In this document: piece after piece, positions 288 through 7,115 of the stretch
Numbering within the stretch: position 1 is the first letter of the stretch
Layout: every line of letters starts with the position of its first letter
Assembly: GCA_030650265.1 (NCBI GenBank)
Contig: JAUSEJ010000999.1
Location: forward strand, 1-7,247
Direction: 5' to 3'
From: Dehalococcoidia bacterium
GTDB lineage: Bacteria; Chloroflexota; Dehalococcoidia; JACPQF01
DNA: 7,247 nucleotides
The notes under the pieces: generated by a model
What the model saw: only the letters and a program-made list of their open reading frames with translations
Database searches by the model: none
Told to the model about the DNA's origin: nothing
Position numbers and translations under genes: made by a program

Positions 288-1088
288 TTGATCGAGTTTG
301 AGATTTTGGTTGATGGGAGCGAGTTCGGGTTAGAGATCGAAGCCTCTTACCAATCTGGACTGCGCATGCCGTCGGATGACGTGGAGCGACGGTGGATCGA
401 GGAGACCTGGCTTCAGAGCCTCCAGCGAGCCGAAAGCGAAGGAGTGCCGCTGTATGATGGCAGGCTCTTCCGGCTAGAGGGTTTCGCAACGGCGGCTGGA
501 CGGCTGACACTCCGACTAGGTGACACGGGCTACAAGGAGTACGTGGCCACCCGACGGCCCGAGTTTCACGGGGTTCATCCCCGCCAACACCTGGCCAATC
601 CGCTGGCCGTCTGCGCCGTATTGGTGACATCTGATGCCAGGATACTGGTTGAACACAGGCACGGCCTCGACGTCTATGCTGGCCGCTATCACGTCATCGG
701 CGGCTTCTTCGAGCGGGATAAAGACGGGGAAGCGGCCCCCGATCCAGTTCGGGCCATTCAGAGAGAGGTGCGTGAGGAGACCGGACTCGATCTCGACCAC
801 AGCCGCTTCACCTGCCTTGCCCTGGTCTACGACCGGATTACCCCCCATCCGGAATTATGCTTCACCGCGCCCATCAGCCTCACCTTTGACGAGGTCAGGC
901 AGCTTCAAGGCACCGATGGCGAGGTAAATCGACTTGAATTCATCGAGGATTCCCCCGCGTCCCTGCGGAACTTCATTCTCGCCAACCACGGCAACATCTC
1001 CGCCACCGGCGAGCCCTGTCTGATCCTTTACGGCAAGCGCCGCTTCGGTCGCGGCTGGCATAACGATCTGTTGGCCGCGATCAGCTAA
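288..1088 (+). CDS. Nudix hydrolase with extended Nudix box (NUDT22-like layout)
   Basis: A 266-residue soluble protein with no signal peptide or membrane segment. Nudix enzymes cleave nucleoside diphosphates linked to another group, using metal held by the Nudix helix. The helix is intact: REVREETGL at residues 159-167 supplies R159, E160, E163 and E164. The preceding loop is long: from G139 to R159 is 20 positions where the classic GX5EX7R box has 14, and it contains RDKDGEAAPDP. Residues 1-100 form a separate N-terminal part including LYDGRLFRL and GYKEYVATRR. From memory, this LYDG-FRL / YK-x-TN-like block plus an expanded box resembles the human NUDT22 UDP-sugar hydrolase group, so a UDP-sugar or related substrate is possible but unproven. 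Nudix assignment is firm; substrate is not. It starts at TTG with a good AGGAG and is convergent with the carboxypeptidase gene 61 bp away. Confidence 0.88.
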   Translation: MIEFEILVDGSEFGLEIEASYQSGLRMPSDDVERRWIEETWLQSLQRAESEGVPLYDGRLFRLEGFATAAGRLTLRLGDTGYKEYVATRRPEFHGVHPRQHLANPLAVCAVLVTSDARILVEHRHGLDVYAGRYHVIGGFFERDKDGEAAPDPVRAIQREVREETGLDLDHSRFTCLALVYDRITPHPELCFTAPISLTFDEVRQLQGTDGEVNRLEFIEDSPASLRNFILANHGNISATGEPCLILYGKRRFGRGWHNDLLAAIS

Positions 1089-1149: not shown

Positions 1150-2754
1150 TTACCCTATCCAGGGAAAATATAGCGTTGACACTCCCTCCACGCGAACGAA
1201 GACCATGGCAAGGCTGCCCCAGTGGCCGGCGACGTCATGGCCGCGAATGAGAAGGGTGTGCCGGCCAAGTTCAAGGGAAGAGGCCGGGAGCGTTGCCTGC
1301 ACGGTCTCGGCAGGGGAATCGAAGGCGCCATCGACCGGAATCATGGCAAAACCTGTGCCGTTGGCGCCGGCGGAATCGACGAAAAGCTCGGCGCCGACAA
1401 TGGTCTGGCCACCATTGCCAAGATCGGAGATGGTCGCCGTAAGGGTGATTGTGCCGGTCAGACCAACCGAGGCCGTCGAGACCCGGGCTTCGGTGGCCTC
1501 CGGTCCGTAGATTCGGTCAGGGTCGTCGGCTATGTTTAGCAGATAGAGAGCCGGCGGTCTATTCTCGGCCCACAGGGTATCCACCCGGCCATAGGGCGGG
1601 TCAAACCAGTCGTTGGAGGAGCCGATTTCCGTGGTGAAGGCCAGAACGTTTTTGTTTGCGTAGGCCCAATCCAGCAGGTTGCCGGAAGTCAGATATAGCT
1701 GTGAGCCCTGCTCCGGCGTATAGGGCGTACTGCCACTCCGGCCGGTTAGTTGAGCCAACTTCGCGCCGGTGGGCGCCAGCCTCAGGTCGAGGCCCGCGTT
1801 GCCAGACTGATAGCCCCACGGCCAAAGGACGAGGTTACCAAAGCTGTGGTAATCCATGAGAAACTTGAAGGAGTTGGCATTGATCAAACGCATAATGGCC
1901 TGCGTCTCCGGTTCGGAGCCGGAGGAAGGGCCATAGAACGTTTCCCCACAGGGATTGGAATCGGCGCCCGCGGAGCCCCAACTGTACGGGAAGTTCCGGT
2001 TGAGGTCCACTCCCCAATAGGGCTCGCCGCAGTTCCCGAGGTTTGTGTTGTCGTTTTTTCGCTTCAGACTGGAGCCGCCCTCGACCAGAGCGTGGCCGTC
2101 GGGATTCACCATAGGCACGATCCAGATGTCGCGGTTGTCGACCAGATAGGTAGCCTCGGCGTCCCTGCCGTAGTTGTCCAGCAGGTACTTAGCTAGACGC
2201 ATGGCGATCTCCGGGGTGACGATCTCGCGAGCATGCTGTTCGGCGTCGAAGAGAACCTGAGGTTTAGGGTTAGCCCCGCGGGTGATCTCGATGGCCCACA
2301 GTCGCCGGTTGGTCCCACCATTGACTGCTTTCCAAGTCGGTCCGAGGTCGGACAACCGGGTGATTGAAGGATAATCGGCAGTGAGCTTAGTCAGGTCCGC
2401 CACCATTCGATCGTAGGTGTAGTAATCGGTCGACCAGGAGAGGGAATTCTGACCGGTTTTTCTCGCGTCCAACTCCAGCCGGTAGCCCCGGTTGCGCAAC
2501 TGATCGGCGTTCCCCTCATCGATCAGCAGGGCAGCAAATCGCGCCTGTAGGTCAACTCCCAGAACGTCGAGGTCGCCCGGCGGCGCCAGCGCCGCTCGTA
2601 AATCGGCAAGGTCATCGAAATAGAGCCTGTATACTTGCAACTGGACCGAAGTCAAAGAGGCCAGAATCGGCGAACCAATCCCGGCATTCTGGTTTCCCAG
2701 TACCAGCAGGAGCACAATCGCCATGAGAACGATCGAGCGGCTCCAGCCCATCAC
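1150..2754 (-). CDS. Secreted M14 zinc carboxypeptidase with C-terminal Ig-like domain
   Basis: A 534-residue metallopeptidase that removes C-terminal residues from peptides outside the cytoplasm. Residues 1-25 are a signal peptide (WSRSIVLMAIVLLLVLG core). Residues about 35-97 resemble an M14 propeptide. The catalytic domain (about 105-408) has HAREIVTPE giving zinc ligands H174 and E177, NPDG at 217-220, LNRNF with N252/R253 for the substrate carboxylate, SEPET at 280-284, the third zinc ligand H303 in YHSFG, and the catalytic glutamate E376 in FTTEIG. All key residues are present. Residues about 412-525 form a beta-rich Ig-like module, followed by the tail TLYFPWIG. The open frame begins GTG-ATG (2754, 2751); the ATG codon may be the true start, and neither has a clear Shine-Dalgarno. 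It lies 60 bp after valS on the same strand with no terminator seen between, so probably shares its transcript. Broad or basic-residue specificity cannot be told. Confidence 0.92.
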   Translation of the reverse strand: MMGWSRSIVLMAIVLLLVLGNQNAGIGSPILASLTSVQLQVYRLYFDDLADLRAALAPPGDLDVLGVDLQARFAALLIDEGNADQLRNRGYRLELDARKTGQNSLSWSTDYYTYDRMVADLTKLTADYPSITRLSDLGPTWKAVNGGTNRRLWAIEITRGANPKPQVLFDAEQHAREIVTPEIAMRLAKYLLDNYGRDAEATYLVDNRDIWIVPMVNPDGHALVEGGSSLKRKNDNTNLGNCGEPYWGVDLNRNFPYSWGSAGADSNPCGETFYGPSSGSEPETQAIMRLINANSFKFLMDYHSFGNLVLWPWGYQSGNAGLDLRLAPTGAKLAQLTGRSGSTPYTPEQGSQLYLTSGNLLDWAYANKNVLAFTTEIGSSNDWFDPPYGRVDTLWAENRPPALYLLNIADDPDRIYGPEATEARVSTASVGLTGTITLTATISDLGNGGQTIVGAELFVDSAGANGTGFAMIPVDGAFDSPAETVQATLPASSLELGRHTLLIRGHDVAGHWGSLAMVFVRVEGVSTLYFPWIG

Positions 2755-2814: not shown

Positions 2815-5580
2815 TCATCGACCAAGGGCCAATAGTCCCTCTCTCAGCTTGGCTTGCTTATCCTGGTTCAGGGAGAGCCTCTCCCGTTCCCGCTCTACGA
2901 CCGCCGCCGGCGCCCTTGCCACGAAGTCCACGTTGGCCAGTTTCGCTTCTGCCCGCTCTATCTCACCGCCGATAGACGCGATCTCTTTTTGCAGCCGCCG
3001 GCTCTCCGCTTCAAGGTCCACCATGCCGGCGATGGGGAGGTAAACTTCGACAGAGTCTACCAACAGTGATAGCGCCTGCTTAGGCTTGTTATCCAGTGAG
3101 GGCAGAATACTCAGAGCGCCGACCCTCGCCAGTTGTTTGAGCACATCCTCCTGCTTACTAAGCATTTCGGTCTCCCGACCGCCGACGATGACTACCTCGA
3201 TCCACTTCGCCGGCTCCACGCCGAACTCGGCCCTGGCATTGCGGATGGCACGGATGCAGTCCATGACCAGTGTCTGGTCACGCTCCGCCTCCTCATCGAG
3301 GGCCTGCACATCTGCTTCGGGATAAGGTGCGACCATTATCGACGCGGGGACCTCGCCGTCCCCCGTTTGCTCCTGCCGCAGATTTTGCCAGATCTCCTCC
3401 GTCACGAACGGCATGAAGGGGTGAAGGAGGCGGAGACTGGAATCAAGGACATGCAAGAGAACCGGCAGCGGATTGCCCTGCGATTCCATTTTCTGGACAT
3501 CGTGAAGGCGAATCTTGGCCATCTCAATGTACCAATCGCAGAACTCGTTCCAGATGAAGTCGTGGATCTGCCGGCCGGCTTCGCCAAGTTGAAATTCCCC
3601 GAGCAAGCGGTTGGCATCGGCGGCCACATGGTTCAAGCGGCTAAGAATCCAGCGATCAGCGAGAGCGCCGGGGATTGCCGATTCTTTCATCTTGAGACCC
3701 GCCGCTCGAAGTTCATCCAGCGTCCGGCCGCCAAGGACAAAACGGGCTGAGTTCCAGAGTTTGTTGGCGAAGTTTCGTCCTGCCTCCACCTTGGTCTCGC
3801 TCAGCCGGCTGTCGTTGCCTGGAGTGCTGCCCGTGGAAAGGGCATAGCGGAGAGCGTCGGTGCCAAACTTGGCCATCACGTCCAGCGGGTTGACGACGTT
3901 CCCCAGTGACTTGCTCATCTTCCGACCTTTCTCGTCTCTCACAAGGCCGTGGAGATAGACTGTGTGGAAAGGTATCTCCCCCGTATTCTCGATTCCCATC
4001 ATGATCATGCGGGCGACCCAGAAGAAGAGAATGTCGTAGGCGGTCTCCATCACGCTCGTGGGATAGAAGAAACGGAAATCCTCCGTATCGTCAGGCCAGC
4101 CGAGAGTGGAGTGTGGCCAGAGTCCTGAGCTGAACCAGGTGTCGAGATTGTCGGGATCCTGGTCGATCTTCTCGCTGCCGCATTTCGGGCACCTGGTCGG
4201 ATCCTCCATCTCGACGATGGCATCCCCGCACGCTTCGCAGTACCATACGGGAATGCGATGTCCCCACCAGATCTGACGGGAGATGCACCAGTCGCGGATG
4301 TTCTCCATCCAGTTGAGGTAGACCTTGCCGAATCGCTCCGGTATTATCTTGATTTGCCCGCTGGTGATAGCATCGATAGCCGGTCTGGCCAGAGGCTTGA
4401 TATCGACGAACCACTGCTTGCTAACCAGAGGTTCGACGGCCGTCTTGCAGCGCTCGCACTGGCCGAGCGGCAGTTGATAGGGTTCGATAGACACAAGAAG
4501 CCCGTCCTTGCGGAGGTCTGCCAGCAGCGCTTTGCGGCAATCATAGCGATCCATGCCGGCGTATGGCCCGGCGTTCTCGTTCATGGTGGCGTCGAAGTTC
4601 ATTATTCTTATAGATGGGAGGCCGTGGCGTTGCCCCACCTCGAAGTCGACCAGATCGTGGGCGGGGGTTATCTTGACAGCGCCGGTGCCAAACGCGGGTT
4701 CAACGGCCTCGTCGGCAATAATTGGTATTTGGCGGTTGACGGCAGGTAGGATGGCTATCCTGCCAATCAGCGCGGCATATCGTTCGTCTTTGGGATTCAC
4801 TGCCACGGCCGTATCGCCCAAAATCGTCTCGGGCCTGGTGGTAGCGACAGTAATGTACTCTGTGGGGGACAGGGGCCTTGGGCCTGGGGCCAGTTCCCCT
4901 GTCCCCTGTCCCCTGTCCCCCGACCCCTGTCCCCCCGGCACAAGAGGGTAGCGAACGTAGAACAACTCTCCCGCGATAGACTCGTGATCCACCTCGAGGT
5001 CGGAGAGGGCCGTCGAGCAGCGGGGACACCAGTTGATCATACGCTCGCCACGATAAATGAGGCCCTTCCGGTAAAGGTTAACGAAGGTAGTGCGAACAGC
5101 CCGCGACGGTCCAGGATCCAGAGTAAATCGTTCCCGCGACCAGTCCGCCGAAACTCCCAGCTTCATATGCTGCTCGGTGATCGTTCGGCCTGTCTTTCTC
5201 ACCCACTCCCACATCCGGTCGAGAAACTTCTCCCGACCGAGGTCGTGGCGGGAGAGTCCCTCCGTGGCCAGTAGCTTCTCCACCACCACTTGAGCGTAGA
5301 TACCGCTGTGGTCTGTTCCGGGGAGCCAGAGCGTAGGGTCGCCCTTCATCCGGTGCCAGCGAACGAGGATATCTTCGACGGTGGCCGTGAGGGCATGGCC
5401 GACATGGAGTTCGCCCGTGATGTTCGGCGGCGGCATGATCACGGTGAAAGGCTTCTTGTTATGATCGATCTTAGGTTTGAAATAGCCTCCATCCAGCCAG
5501 AACTTGTATTGCCGTTGCTCGACAAGTTGGGGTTCGTAGGCCTTGGGCATTTCTATCTTCTGATCAGGGCTGTTGGTCAT
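2815..5580 (-). CDS. valS: Valyl-tRNA synthetase
   Basis: Class I cytoplasmic synthetase that charges tRNA-Val with valine and edits mis-activated threonine. The 921 residues are slightly above the usual 860-900. HIGH box is HVGH at 59-62 after PPPNITGEL; KMSKS is at 554-558 (GRKMSKSLGN). The editing (CP1) domain shows TTRPETILGDTAVAVNP at 247-263. Cysteine pairs C185/C188 and C375/C378, and the four-cysteine knuckle C448, C451, C464, C467, fit zinc binding. ISRQIWWGHRIPVWYC and LDTWFSSGLWP are typical of the family. Residues about 855-921 are the ValRS C-terminal coiled-coil arm. Oddities: residues about 215-240 are a Gly/Pro/Arg-rich insert encoded by a heptanucleotide repeat, and the usual DHAGIATQ reads DHSGIYAQ (90-97). 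Start ATG has GAGGA 8 nt upstream. Expression is governed by a valine T-box leader. Confidence 0.98.
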   Translation of the reverse strand: MTNSPDQKIEMPKAYEPQLVEQRQYKFWLDGGYFKPKIDHNKKPFTVIMPPPNITGELHVGHALTATVEDILVRWHRMKGDPTLWLPGTDHSGIYAQVVVEKLLATEGLSRHDLGREKFLDRMWEWVRKTGRTITEQHMKLGVSADWSRERFTLDPGPSRAVRTTFVNLYRKGLIYRGERMINWCPRCSTALSDLEVDHESIAGELFYVRYPLVPGGQGSGDRGQGTGELAPGPRPLSPTEYITVATTRPETILGDTAVAVNPKDERYAALIGRIAILPAVNRQIPIIADEAVEPAFGTGAVKITPAHDLVDFEVGQRHGLPSIRIMNFDATMNENAGPYAGMDRYDCRKALLADLRKDGLLVSIEPYQLPLGQCERCKTAVEPLVSKQWFVDIKPLARPAIDAITSGQIKIIPERFGKVYLNWMENIRDWCISRQIWWGHRIPVWYCEACGDAIVEMEDPTRCPKCGSEKIDQDPDNLDTWFSSGLWPHSTLGWPDDTEDFRFFYPTSVMETAYDILFFWVARMIMMGIENTGEIPFHTVYLHGLVRDEKGRKMSKSLGNVVNPLDVMAKFGTDALRYALSTGSTPGNDSRLSETKVEAGRNFANKLWNSARFVLGGRTLDELRAAGLKMKESAIPGALADRWILSRLNHVAADANRLLGEFQLGEAGRQIHDFIWNEFCDWYIEMAKIRLHDVQKMESQGNPLPVLLHVLDSSLRLLHPFMPFVTEEIWQNLRQEQTGDGEVPASIMVAPYPEADVQALDEEAERDQTLVMDCIRAIRNARAEFGVEPAKWIEVVIVGGRETEMLSKQEDVLKQLARVGALSILPSLDNKPKQALSLLVDSVEVYLPIAGMVDLEAESRRLQKEIASIGGEIERAEAKLANVDFVARAPAAVVERERERLSLNQDKQAKLREGLLALGR
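4865..4930. repeat. In-frame opposed heptanucleotide repeat element inside valS
   Basis: Reading the plus strand, four 7-bp units (GGGGACA, GGGGCCT, TGGGCCT, GGGGCCA; 4865-4892) are followed by GTT and five units in complementary orientation (three exact CCCCTGT at 4896-4916, then CCCCCGA, then CCCCTGT to 4930), running on into CCCCCC. The two halves can pair, for example GGGGACAGGGG with CCCCTGTCCCC. The total is 66 bp, exactly 22 codons, with no stop in the valS frame. It encodes roughly residues 217-238 of ValRS, where other ValRS proteins go almost directly from YPL to the TTRPE strand. It resembles heptamer STRR repeats of cyanobacteria in style only. A dispersed repeat that entered the gene, followed by slippage, is the likeliest origin. 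Confidence 0.85.
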
Positions 5581-5610: not shown

Positions 5611-5645
5611 CAAAACAAAACCCCCCCGTCCTTAAGGACGAAGGG
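5611..5645 (-). terminator. Intrinsic terminator of the valS T-box leader
   Basis: On the minus strand CCCUU-CGUCC, loop UUAA, GGACG-GGGGG forms a 10-bp stem (two G-U pairs), followed by UUUUGUUUUG at 5620-5611. The 5' arm region CUCCC can instead pair with the G-rich start of the T-box sequence, giving the mutually exclusive antiterminator expected of this riboswitch class. Confidence 0.88.
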
Positions 5646-5952
5646 AGCTACTTCGTGGTACCACCCCGGTTTGCCTGGCAGCACCACTCAGTCCCCTCTC
5701 CGTTGGTCCTTCAGCTGAAGGAGGGCCAGGGTGAGTGCGTCCACAGCCAACCCTCTTACGCGCTATCGGGCGAACCCGGATGGACCCACTTCAAATTCGG
5801 CCCATCGACCCCCAAGCGACTTTCGGCGACCTGCCCCGCGGTGGTTTTTCAGCCGCCGCCCCACCTTCTCTACCAGTTCCCGGTCAGCCTACTCTTCTTG
5901 TTCATCGTCTTTCTCGGCTATGACCATGTCCTGCGACCACCGGAGGGTCGCG
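5611..5952 (-). ncRNA. T-box riboswitch leader of valS, valine (GUC) specifier
   Basis: This cis-acting RNA senses uncharged tRNA-Val. Minus-strand landmarks in order: a 6-bp hairpin at 5951-5933 (GCGACC/GGTCGC); Stem I with AGUA at 5893-5890, the helix GGC(U)GACC 5889-5882 pairing with GGUCGCC 5831-5825, then the loop E partner GAA 5824-5822, an extra A, and specifier GUC at 5820-5818; a lower helix CAAG/CUUG; the distal stem GGUGG 5865-5861 with CCACC 5844-5840. Stem II pairs 5790-5781 with 5743-5734 (9 of 10 pairs). A UUCG-capped hairpin (5778-5767) and a 14-nt palindrome (5721-5708) follow. The T-box GGGUGGUACCACG is at 5666-5654; its UGGU bulge predicts discriminator base A, as expected for tRNA-Val. 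The family call rests on the T-box plus terminator and is firm; the GUC specifier is likely (AGU, one base earlier, is the alternative). Confidence 0.93.
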
Positions 5953-5958
5953 GGAGGT

Positions 5959-5987
5959 ATTTTAGGGTAATCCCGCTAGTCTGTCAA
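5959..5987 (-). promoter_or_regulatory. valS leader promoter (sigma70 type)
   Basis: On the minus strand TTGACA (5987-5982, perfect) and TAAAAT (5964-5959, 5 of 6) are spaced by exactly 17 bp. The predicted start near 5952 falls at the foot of the first leader hairpin, just upstream of Stem I. This agreement with the T-box structure makes the promoter call strong. Confidence 0.85.
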
Positions 5988-6008
5988 TTCGTCCGTTCGG
6001 GTGGTGAG

Positions 6009-6037
6009 TTGCTTTTTCGAAGAAAACCGGCTAAAAT
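6009..6037 (+). promoter_or_regulatory. Promoter of the AI-2E gene, predicted leaderless
   Basis: TTGCTT (6009-6014) and TAAAAT (6032-6037) are 17 bp apart. The -10 box ends 7 bp before the ATG at 6045, so transcription should begin at or within a base or two of the start codon. No Shine-Dalgarno is present between the -10 box and the ATG. It is divergent from the valS promoter, with 21 bp between the two -35 boxes. Confidence 0.65.
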
Positions 6038-6044
6038 CTCTACC

Positions 6045-7115
6045 ATGGACGAACAGCGTGAGCAGGTTTTGACTCAGATCAAGCTAGGCAAGCGGGAGAA
6101 GACTGCCATTGTCATAGTTCTGGTAGTGGTTGCTCTTTTGTTCCTGTATGTCGTGCGCCATATCCTGCCGCCGTTCATCTGGGGAATAGTGGCGGCATAT
6201 GTCTTAAACCCCCTGGTGAACTGGATATCGCTCAAGACAAAGGTGCGTCGCGGCTACATCGTAATGATAATGGCTCTGGCTCTCGTCTTTGGTCTGGGCT
6301 GGGTAATTGTGAATGTGACAGCGGCCGCCATCAGCGAGGTTCAGGACATGCAAGAACACTGGCCGGAGATATTAGCCTCGGTCGAGAAGGACTTCTTTGG
6401 TAATTCTCAACCGACGCTCTTTGGTTTCACGGTCACAGCAACGTCGATCAGCGACGCCGTGGCTCGGCAGGTTGGCGATGTCCCTCGCGGCGCCCTGACA
6501 GCCCTACACTGGACAGTCGATCTACTCGGCAAGCTGCTCATATTCTTCGTAACGTTCTTTCTTCTCCTTCTGGATGGCAAGAAACTGTCGCTTCAAGTGA
6601 GGAAATTGATACCTCTCGCCTATATGAATGAGATAGTTGACCTCGGGCATCGGATAAACCGCACTCTGGGCGCCTACATTCGCGGACAATTGCTCGTCTT
6701 CGTCTTGATGAGCCTCGTGACCTGGATAGCTATTGGTCCCATACTTCATCTTCGATATGCCGTTGTCTTGAGTCTTGCCACGGGAGTGCTGGAATGGTTT
6801 CCCATAATCGGCCCCATAGCGGCGGGTGCCATTGCCGTTACAGTTGGATTGTTTCAGCCAAACGTCTTTGACTGGAACCCGTGGGTATTTTGTGGCGTGA
6901 TCGCTCTTGTTTACACGGTTCTTCGTTACTTGGAAGATTATCTCGTCATTCCCAACGTGATCGGTCGAGCCGTTCACCTACACCCCCTCATCGTCATTTT
7001 TGCCTTATTTTCAGGTGGATCGATAGCAGGGATTTTGGGAATGATGACCGCCGTTCCGGTAGCGGCGGTCATCAAGCTCGTGCTAGAGTATATATATAGC
7101 AAGTTGACAACTTAG
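6045..7115 (+). CDS. AI-2E family (UPF0118) membrane transporter
   Basis: A 356-residue integral inner-membrane protein of the AI-2E family, whose members include exporters of autoinducer-2 or other small solutes and Na+/H+ antiporters; the substrate cannot be assigned here. About eight hydrophobic segments are visible: roughly 20-38, 41-58, 70-95, 155-177, 213-232, 236-270, 280-297 and 310-345. A soluble loop lies between about 96 and 152. Family signatures are EWFPIIGPIAAG (250-261), YLEDYLVIPNVIGR (295-308) and the final HPLIVIFALFSGGSIAGILG with MMTAVPVAAVIK (313-344). Length fits the family. The frame is open back to 5655, but those 130 codons lie antisense to the valS T-box and promoter and have no family resemblance, so ATG 6045 is chosen; it begins MDEQREQVL and sits 7 bp after a -10 box. 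The GNAT gene follows almost directly. Confidence 0.93.
   Translation: MDEQREQVLTQIKLGKREKTAIVIVLVVVALLFLYVVRHILPPFIWGIVAAYVLNPLVNWISLKTKVRRGYIVMIMALALVFGLGWVIVNVTAAAISEVQDMQEHWPEILASVEKDFFGNSQPTLFGFTVTATSISDAVARQVGDVPRGALTALHWTVDLLGKLLIFFVTFFLLLLDGKKLSLQVRKLIPLAYMNEIVDLGHRINRTLGAYIRGQLLVFVLMSLVTWIAIGPILHLRYAVVLSLATGVLEWFPIIGPIAAGAIAVTVGLFQPNVFDWNPWVFCGVIALVYTVLRYLEDYLVIPNVIGRAVHLHPLIVIFALFSGGSIAGILGMMTAVPVAAVIKLVLEYIYSKLTT

Follow-up and report, generated by a model that had tools for sequence, protein, structure and literature searches.

A repeat-coded insert in valine--tRNA ligase

We studied a 7247-bp contig of a Dehalococcoidia bacterium (JAUSEJ010000999.1; "the window" denotes this whole stretch) that carries valS, the gene for valine--tRNA ligase (ValRS), with an in-frame insert coded by 7-bp repeats. 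The gene is uninterrupted and encodes 921 aa on the minus strand (2815..5580); it scores above the cut-offs of both NCBIfam NF004349 (1171.9 bits) and TIGR00422 (1077.6 bits), and tRNA-synthetase domains are the only ones that Pfam finds in its product above its own cut-offs. The insert, PGGQGSGDRGQGTGELAPGPRPLSP, comprises residues 215-239 (4864..4938, minus strand), as delimited by loop comparisons and by DNA alignment with the valS of a second genome, G042. It stands where the CP1 editing domain begins, a placement that we take from established knowledge of ValRS.

The sequence-only reading had held that residues ~215-240 are encoded by 7-bp repeats, and this is borne out in frame within the valS ORF. 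Tandem Repeats Finder (TRF) reports a TCCCCTG array of 5.7 copies with 87% matches at 4895-4934, corresponding to GGGGACA units on the coding strand, and a second period-7 stretch at 4872-4891. Allowing at most 3 mismatches, CCCCTGTCCCCTGTCCCC occurs five times, all inside 4865-4934, against an expectation of 0.01 from 200 dinucleotide shuffles; and among exact runs of at least 11 in the window there is one at period 7, and none at periods 4, 5, 8, 10, 11 or 13. The corresponding counts for L001-L018 hardly vary with period, perhaps because masked runs inflate them, and were left out of account. Tandem GGGGACA contains no stop in any of its six frames, which is permissive rather than remarkable because about half of all heptamers share this property.

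The insert is also a hairpin, a feature that the sequence-only reading overlooked, although its description of the heptamer array was right as far as it went. Its arms, GGGGGACAGGGG at 4864..4875 and CCCCTGTCCCCC at 4910..4921 (both given on the plus strand), form an exact 12-bp stem, which was not reached once when the codons of the loop were shuffled 500 times; in the folds, heptamer units adjacent to the second arm are able to pair instead. Folding z-scores are -2.9 for DNA and -3.1 for RNA, with an RNA fold of -54.7 kcal/mol. We are practically certain of this anatomy: position, frame, repeat, and hairpin.

Protein comparison identifies the stretch as a gain. In the best 120 homologues listed, which include the window's own protein, the distance from LSDLEV to RPET is 37-39 residues in 114, 41-49 in four, and 61-62 in two, the ValRS of the window (61) and P0002. 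The gain is 22-24 residues, which fits the earlier proposal of a repeat core of exactly 22 codons, and a comparable loop is missing from 118 of the 120, as expected of an in-frame insertion. P0092 (49 residues) and P0029 (46) have no period 7 in the loop; the sole relative of similar length among those listed, P0002, is also repeat-coded, which counters the objection, raised beforehand, that close relatives might all carry a non-repetitive loop of this length. In alignment, the insert falls opposite a gap in the solved structure of Thermus thermophilus ValRS, 1gax. An AlphaFold2 model (57 sequences, mean pLDDT 76) places residues 219-239 below pLDDT 50 between strands at 197-213 and 242-247, consistent with the suggestion that the insert sits in a loop, and the insert is probably disordered. 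With 25 residues (fewer than 100) and no splicing domain, it is not an intein-type element.

Reading the loop from DNA gave a similar picture. From 126 loci we dropped 15 for want of a motif match and added the window, giving 112 loops (a few genomes are represented twice, e.g. L001 and L094); by the wider NW-to-RPE measure, 104 of these are shorter than 55 residues. The eight long ones are the window, its G042 orthologue (L084), L025, L058, L206, L010, L097, and L199. Three of them (L025, L058, L206), from some Chloroflexota, hold another insert in the same loop, conserved, non-repetitive, and of DWDGPRAEWGSG type. We compared the stems of other long loops with those of 500 codon shuffles each: the observed stem was reached by 9 shuffles for L097 (marginal), 66 for L010 (not significant), and 11 for the natural insert of L058. 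This last score shows that the test is unspecific at that strength, and we rejected the idea that inverted repeats mark long ValRS loops in general.

Searching for proteins that share the loop (29 candidates) returned, besides the window's own, just P0002 (E 2.4e-3) and, weakly, another ValRS, P0121 (E 1.9). When 44 loop peptides were back-translated for period 7, eight scored at or under 0.01 of shuffles; two of these are the window and P0002, another two (P0219 and P0224) are identical, and the signal, drawn mostly from a biased search, is only suggestive. As judged from peptides, other 7-bp units fit the loops of P0149, P0199, P0209, P0219, P0223, and P0240 (best period 7; 14 for P0240), and 8-bp units fit P0133, P0207, and P0217.

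Outside the insert, valS has a probable T-box leader (5631..5914, minus strand; RF00230, 78.6 bits, E 1.8e-17), which lies below the gathering score of 93; Rfam at its gathering threshold gave no match in the window. The neighbouring genes encode a NUDIX protein (288-1088, plus strand), an M14 zinc carboxypeptidase (1150-2754, minus strand), and an AI-2E family transporter (5655-7115, plus strand). The nearest relatives of the window's ValRS among the best 120 homologues carry Chloroflexota names at source.

A sister hairpin at the same site

The closest ValRS relative, P0002 (83% identical; a Chloroflexi metagenome-assembled genome by source name), is encoded at 100% identity in G042. There the loop DNA reads CAGTGGTCAGTGG ... 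CCACTGACCACTG, in which GTGGTCA units form a 13-bp stem, accompanied by a short GGGGAC stretch. At the DNA level, identity between the valS genes of the window and G042 is 80% (2197/2748 aligned bases, insert included). Aligning them defined the insert boundaries: to within a few bases, both inserts begin and stop at the same flanking sequence, and they are nearly equal in length. The same valS site thus holds a hairpin in both lineages, of GGGGACA type in the window and GTGGTCA type in G042, with the two arms differing in step. Most likely this reflects one ancestral insertion that was later rewritten.

A heptamer family across G042

We examined G042 for family copies in place of the window organism's genome. 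Allowing at most one mismatch, GGGGACAGGGGACA matches at 38 places (its reversed sequence matches the same arrays, and hence is no control) and CAGTGGTCAGTGGT at nine (control 0); GGGTAGAGGGTAGA, two GGGTAGA units, gives 234 matches (control 1). Five isolated one-mismatch matches of GGGGACAGGGGACA (C46, C100, C101, C102, C118) are not arrays and were left out. Twelve of the 24 array sites of GGGGACA/GTGGTCA type are no more than 150 bp from the end of a contig, where ~0.35 would be expected with at least 155 contigs (binomial tail 2e-10 even at 500 contigs). Because many contig ends carry heptamer arrays, the draft probably understates the true copy number of G042. Such arrays mark the contig ends of C33, C42, C51, C66, C73, C81, C90, C98, C120, and others.

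GGGTAGA arrays number 47 in 40 stretches of G042, with an exact stem of at least 12 in 24 of them. Most lie outside long reading frames; 16 lie in ORFs of at least 100 aa that extend ~30 or more codons past both array ends. Pfam, run on 10 ORFs that cover 11 of these 16 arrays, found domains around or over the array in six, a domain elsewhere in one (PMT), and none in three. The six are MutS, RecJ, DnaE, QueA, the dihydrolipoamide acyltransferase E2, and GH38; a seventh gene, for a SAM hydroxide adenosyltransferase (SAM_HAT), was a chance find and carries an in-frame GGGTAGA hairpin with a 23-bp stem. The arrays of these seven genes, mostly hairpins, lie at L261, L262, L263, L267, L259, L243, and L226. 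In alignments to solved structures, the MutS, RecJ, and QueA inserts mostly appear as extra residues, the gain in QueA being just ~14. A GGGGACA hairpin of ~130 bp also lies in frame in a YfhO-type protein of G042, whose Pfam support is found only far downstream of the array.

All seven genes encode variants of the peptide RVEGRGYRVEG..PLPSTLYP, GH38 with the second half only. This shared peptide is not independent proof of selection, because the TAG stops that close other frames partly dictate the reading frame. In another genome, G048, the valS (L085) has no insert, and GGGGTCA-type arrays lie inside genes for a cytidylyltransferase and an SMC/RecN-type protein (L295, L296; two of five fetched arrays). 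Among eight array-bearing ORFs of G048, G390, and G238, a domain spans the array in two, lies only beyond it in one, and is lacking in five. We conclude that heptamer hairpins able to code for protein probably make up a family found across the lineage, of which the window insert would be a single copy.

Distribution in the class is patchy: GKGGWCAGKGGWCAGKGG is present in 15 of 393 genomes (27 matches in G042, 26 in G238, 21 in G390, and at most 11 in the others) and has no match in 378, a count that does not take kinship into account. The nearest heptamer element to the Y1_Tnp gene of G042 is the GGGTAGA hairpin inside SAM_HAT, 1.2 kb away. We rejected this transposase as the mobiliser, as its gene is not flanked by heptamer elements.

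Transposase domains in the same loop of planctomycete-type ValRS

The loop of P0121 led to a different kind of insert at this place. We took the best 120 of 7648 matches to it, a sample biased by loop similarity, and could evaluate 116, four lacking the motifs. More than 250 residues occupy the same loop in 73 of the 116, and all 73 have a HUH motif (71 HVH, 2 HIH); a pattern search recovers the tyrosine motif of transposase type in 63 and not in the other 10. Pfam places Y1_Tnp in the loop of all five scanned (P0132, P0136, P0146, P0200, P0126), covering approximately positions 36-106 of the 121-position profile. Peptides that resemble repeats, TGFQPV and HGQDARAT among them, adjoin the transposase domain by a loose motif, on its left side in 63 of 73 and on its right in 70. 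These proteins are mostly 1200-1350 aa long (e.g. P0126, P0129-P0132, P0134-P0138), and their source names include Phycisphaerae, Planctomycetota, and Anaerobaca lacustris.

A model of P0151 (60 sequences, two without the domain; mean pLDDT 75) predicts an ordered domain at ~243-419, with block means of 54-86 and two linkers below 50. We read the planctomycete-type inserts as putative transposases associated with repetitive extragenic palindromes (REPs), that is, REP-associated tyrosine transposase (RAYT)-like domains nested in ValRS, the symmetry of the flanking peptides suggesting palindromic DNA on either side. Transposase and ValRS distances correlate weakly among 58 sequences (r 0.32; permutation maximum 0.18 in 500), which decides neither for a single origin nor for repeated exchange of the transposase. 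Among viral contigs, one pattern match and no relative of the transposase-bearing ValRS was found.

In literature on REP-associated tyrosine transposases with synthetases, and on RAYTs in Planctomycetes, we found no report of a transposase within a tRNA synthetase. One source reports, in the part that bears on this, that in three species synthetase genes contain REPs rather than transposases (PMC3733652), and a survey mentions, in one passage, that a few unexpectedly long transposases were dropped as fusions or annotation errors (PMC6006769).

Comparison with known repeat systems

Rickettsia palindromic elements (RPEs) are short palindromic repeats that lie in frame in unrelated genes, housekeeping genes included, and are tolerated as extra residues. 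To our knowledge they have no 7-bp tandem units. The sequence-only reading compared the ValRS insert to them in principle, and the comparison holds: the elements here are palindromic too, with stems of 12 bp in the window, 13 bp in G042 valS, and 23 bp in SAM_HAT, and in a single genome, G042, they lie in frame in several unrelated genes (MutS, RecJ, DnaE, QueA, E2, GH38, SAM_HAT, and ValRS). The likeness is one of architecture; the elements here are built of 7-bp tandem units, and the host phylum is not that of Rickettsia, the ValRS relatives being named as Chloroflexota; the insert works like an RPE without being a member. For RPE-1, an excerpt of one report describes a copy within a tRNA-modification gene (PMC3733652). 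That report also describes, in part, REPs inside ORFs, including DnaE, repair, and tRNA synthetase genes (PMC3733652).

REPs, as portrayed in the excerpted account, are 20-40 bp stems tagged with GTAG or CGTC and linked to RAYT transposases. No such link was found for the heptamer elements of G042: the single Y1_Tnp match of that genome is not flanked by them. We saw no GTAG or CGTC tag beside the window hairpin, where no systematic search was made, and GGGTAGA units contain GTAG by composition.

Heptanucleotide repeats are familiar from heterocystous cyanobacteria as the short tandemly repeated repetitive (STRR) sequences. A 7-bp tandem unit, as in these and in the Xanthomonas and Nostoc heptamers, is present in the window (TRF period 7). 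G-rich heptamers of Xanthomonas and Nostoc have been described (PMC4692102), and that account agrees with our observations in that the units are G-rich, dispersed, found in some genomes only, and in some cases inverted repeats. It differs in the units themselves, GGGAATC and GGGGA[TC]T there against GGGGACA, GTGGTCA, and GGGTAGA here, and the elements here also lie inside conserved genes. On under-representation in coding regions, a trait of that kind of repeat, our observations point both ways: the window copy is in valS, and 16 of 47 GGGTAGA arrays of G042 are spanned by an ORF of at least 100 aa, yet the majority are not. Heptamer arrays are noted in passing for Beggiatoaceae (PMC4679880). 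In Geobacter metallireducens, 49 elements with four tandem GGGACCG heptanucleotides lie within and between genes (PMC2700814); they share with ours a presence in genes, while the excerpted account describes them as putatively regulatory, with tandem repeats, and mentions no alternative heptamers at a shared site.

The closest parallel to the exchange of GTGGTCA for GGGGACA in valS is the P6b stem-loop of the Nostoc trnL intron, where, in the relevant extract, Class I or Class II 7-nt motifs have repeatedly replaced each other (PMC4476775). That stem-loop lies in a self-splicing intron and not in a protein-coding loop. We found no literature on heptanucleotide repeats in Chloroflexi, and the combination of protein-coding heptamer hairpins, essential genes, and in-place exchange of heptamers seems to be new.

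Discussion

The account to which we incline, on balance, is that a copy of the family inserted into an ancestral valS, was kept as a loop, and had its heptamer rewritten later. The family would consist of short hairpin elements, ~40-130 bp long and made of 7-bp repeats, spread across the lineage. One copy would have entered the permissive turn between the YPL strand and TTRPE in an ancestor shared by the window organism and G042. It would have been retained because neither its length nor its frame disrupted the reading of the protein, and because the 22-24 additional residues make a disordered loop that stays clear of the folded core, presumably harmless to the enzyme. Subsequently the heptamer would have been rewritten in both arms, to GTGGTCA type in one lineage and GGGGACA type in the other. 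Rewriting may have proceeded by 7-bp slippage together with arm-to-arm copying at replication (quasi-palindrome template switching), which would keep the stem; we offer this step tentatively, as somewhat short of probable. That the hairpin is a dispersing element we consider fairly probable: copies would spread by some route and survive just where the frame is open and the loop lies outside the core.

Several observations weigh against this account. The valS pair could reflect two independent insertions into a shared permissive site. The genome set contains no member of the family of G042 besides G042 itself, so that no close relative offers an empty site, and multi-copy dispersal is seen in G042 only. 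The elements show no tie to a mobility gene, the sole Y1 transposase locus of G042 (3.3 kb) being without a G[GT]GG[AT]CA array. A mirror-image pattern occurs in 18 of the 393 genomes, 10 of them without a forward match, and is thus no rarer than GKGGWCAGKGGWCAGKGG, the two patterns overlapping in that GGGGACAGGGG is its own mirror image; the GKGGWCAGKGGWCAGKGG unit is not special in the class, where other G-rich heptamer arrays are about equally common. Away from contig ends, just five of the 12 GGGGACA/GTGGTCA-type arrays of G042 have an exact stem of at least 11, and none of 22 G[GT]GG[AT]CA arrays does so in 20 stretches of four other genomes. The difference between these counts (Fisher p 0.003; 0.008 without valS) comes from rules that were not identical (at least two units and 130-base margins in G042, at least three units and 110 bases in the four others) and from a strict exact-stem criterion, under which some arrays of other genomes, e.g. 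L295, still resemble imperfect hairpins. Stemless arrays exist, so the hairpin may arise secondarily.

This last point is shared by the strongest competitor of the dispersing hairpin, a home-grown array in which slippage in a G-rich turn made the repeat and template switching the hairpin, with no mobile element involved. The dominance of period 7, the direct arrays without exact stems in other genomes, and the lack of any tie to a transposase in G042 all suit such an origin, which we nevertheless think unlikely: a few heptamers recur at many G042 sites, as independent slippage would not be expected to produce, and variants of one peptide recur in seven genes, if in GH38 from the second arm only. 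It is quite improbable that the loop is instead a useful feature of ValRS, for tRNA contact or control of editing, and is of low complexity by chance. It has been retained in frame in two lineages whose valS genes differ at a fifth of aligned bases, and the conserved insert of L025, L058, and L206 indicates that functional loops at this site are possible; yet the two insert sequences differ beyond the heptamer pattern, model confidence in the insert is below 50, and nearly all of the best listed ValRS do without the loop.

Might the hairpin instead act in the valS mRNA, on stability, pausing, or translation, with the protein insert as a by-product? The stable RNA fold and the joint change of both arms between lineages would accord with this, although template switching predicts coordinated arm change equally, G042 copies also lie outside long ORFs and in unrelated genes, and the probable T-box leader already provides control; we regard a role in the mRNA as a slim prospect, slightly slimmer than a useful loop. 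An artefact of assembly or gene model is barely credible. Arrays do break assemblies, as the clustering at G042 contig ends attests; the window array is ~40 bp and far from contig ends, and two different contigs show an in-frame hairpin at the same valS site.

Taking the Chloroflexota and planctomycete observations together, we put at about even the prospect of a wider, two-part reading. The turn before TTRPE would be a recurrent landing site for repeat elements across phyla: in Chloroflexota it would receive heptamer hairpins, whereas Planctomycetota would have REP-like palindromes there and an entire HUH transposase (RAYT), nested in frame in ValRS and bordered at either end by its own repeat peptides. 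The hairpins of the window lineage would form a new gene-invading class whose hallmark is the period and the hairpin and not the sequence, swapping heptamers in place and present in DnaE, MutS, and RecJ. As a protein architecture, a ValRS with an internal transposase domain, as in the planctomycete-type sequences, would be striking in itself.

Given the copies in MutS, RecJ, and DnaE, one may ask whether the elements prefer genes of repair and replication, or whether conserved genes are simply where copies are most recognisable. The valS pair, one place with two heptamers and both arms changed, makes it testable how the arms of palindromes stay matched and why 7 bp is favoured. More broadly, these elements point to a route, outside the world of Rickettsia and of REPs, by which selfish-looking repeats may become protein in indispensable genes.

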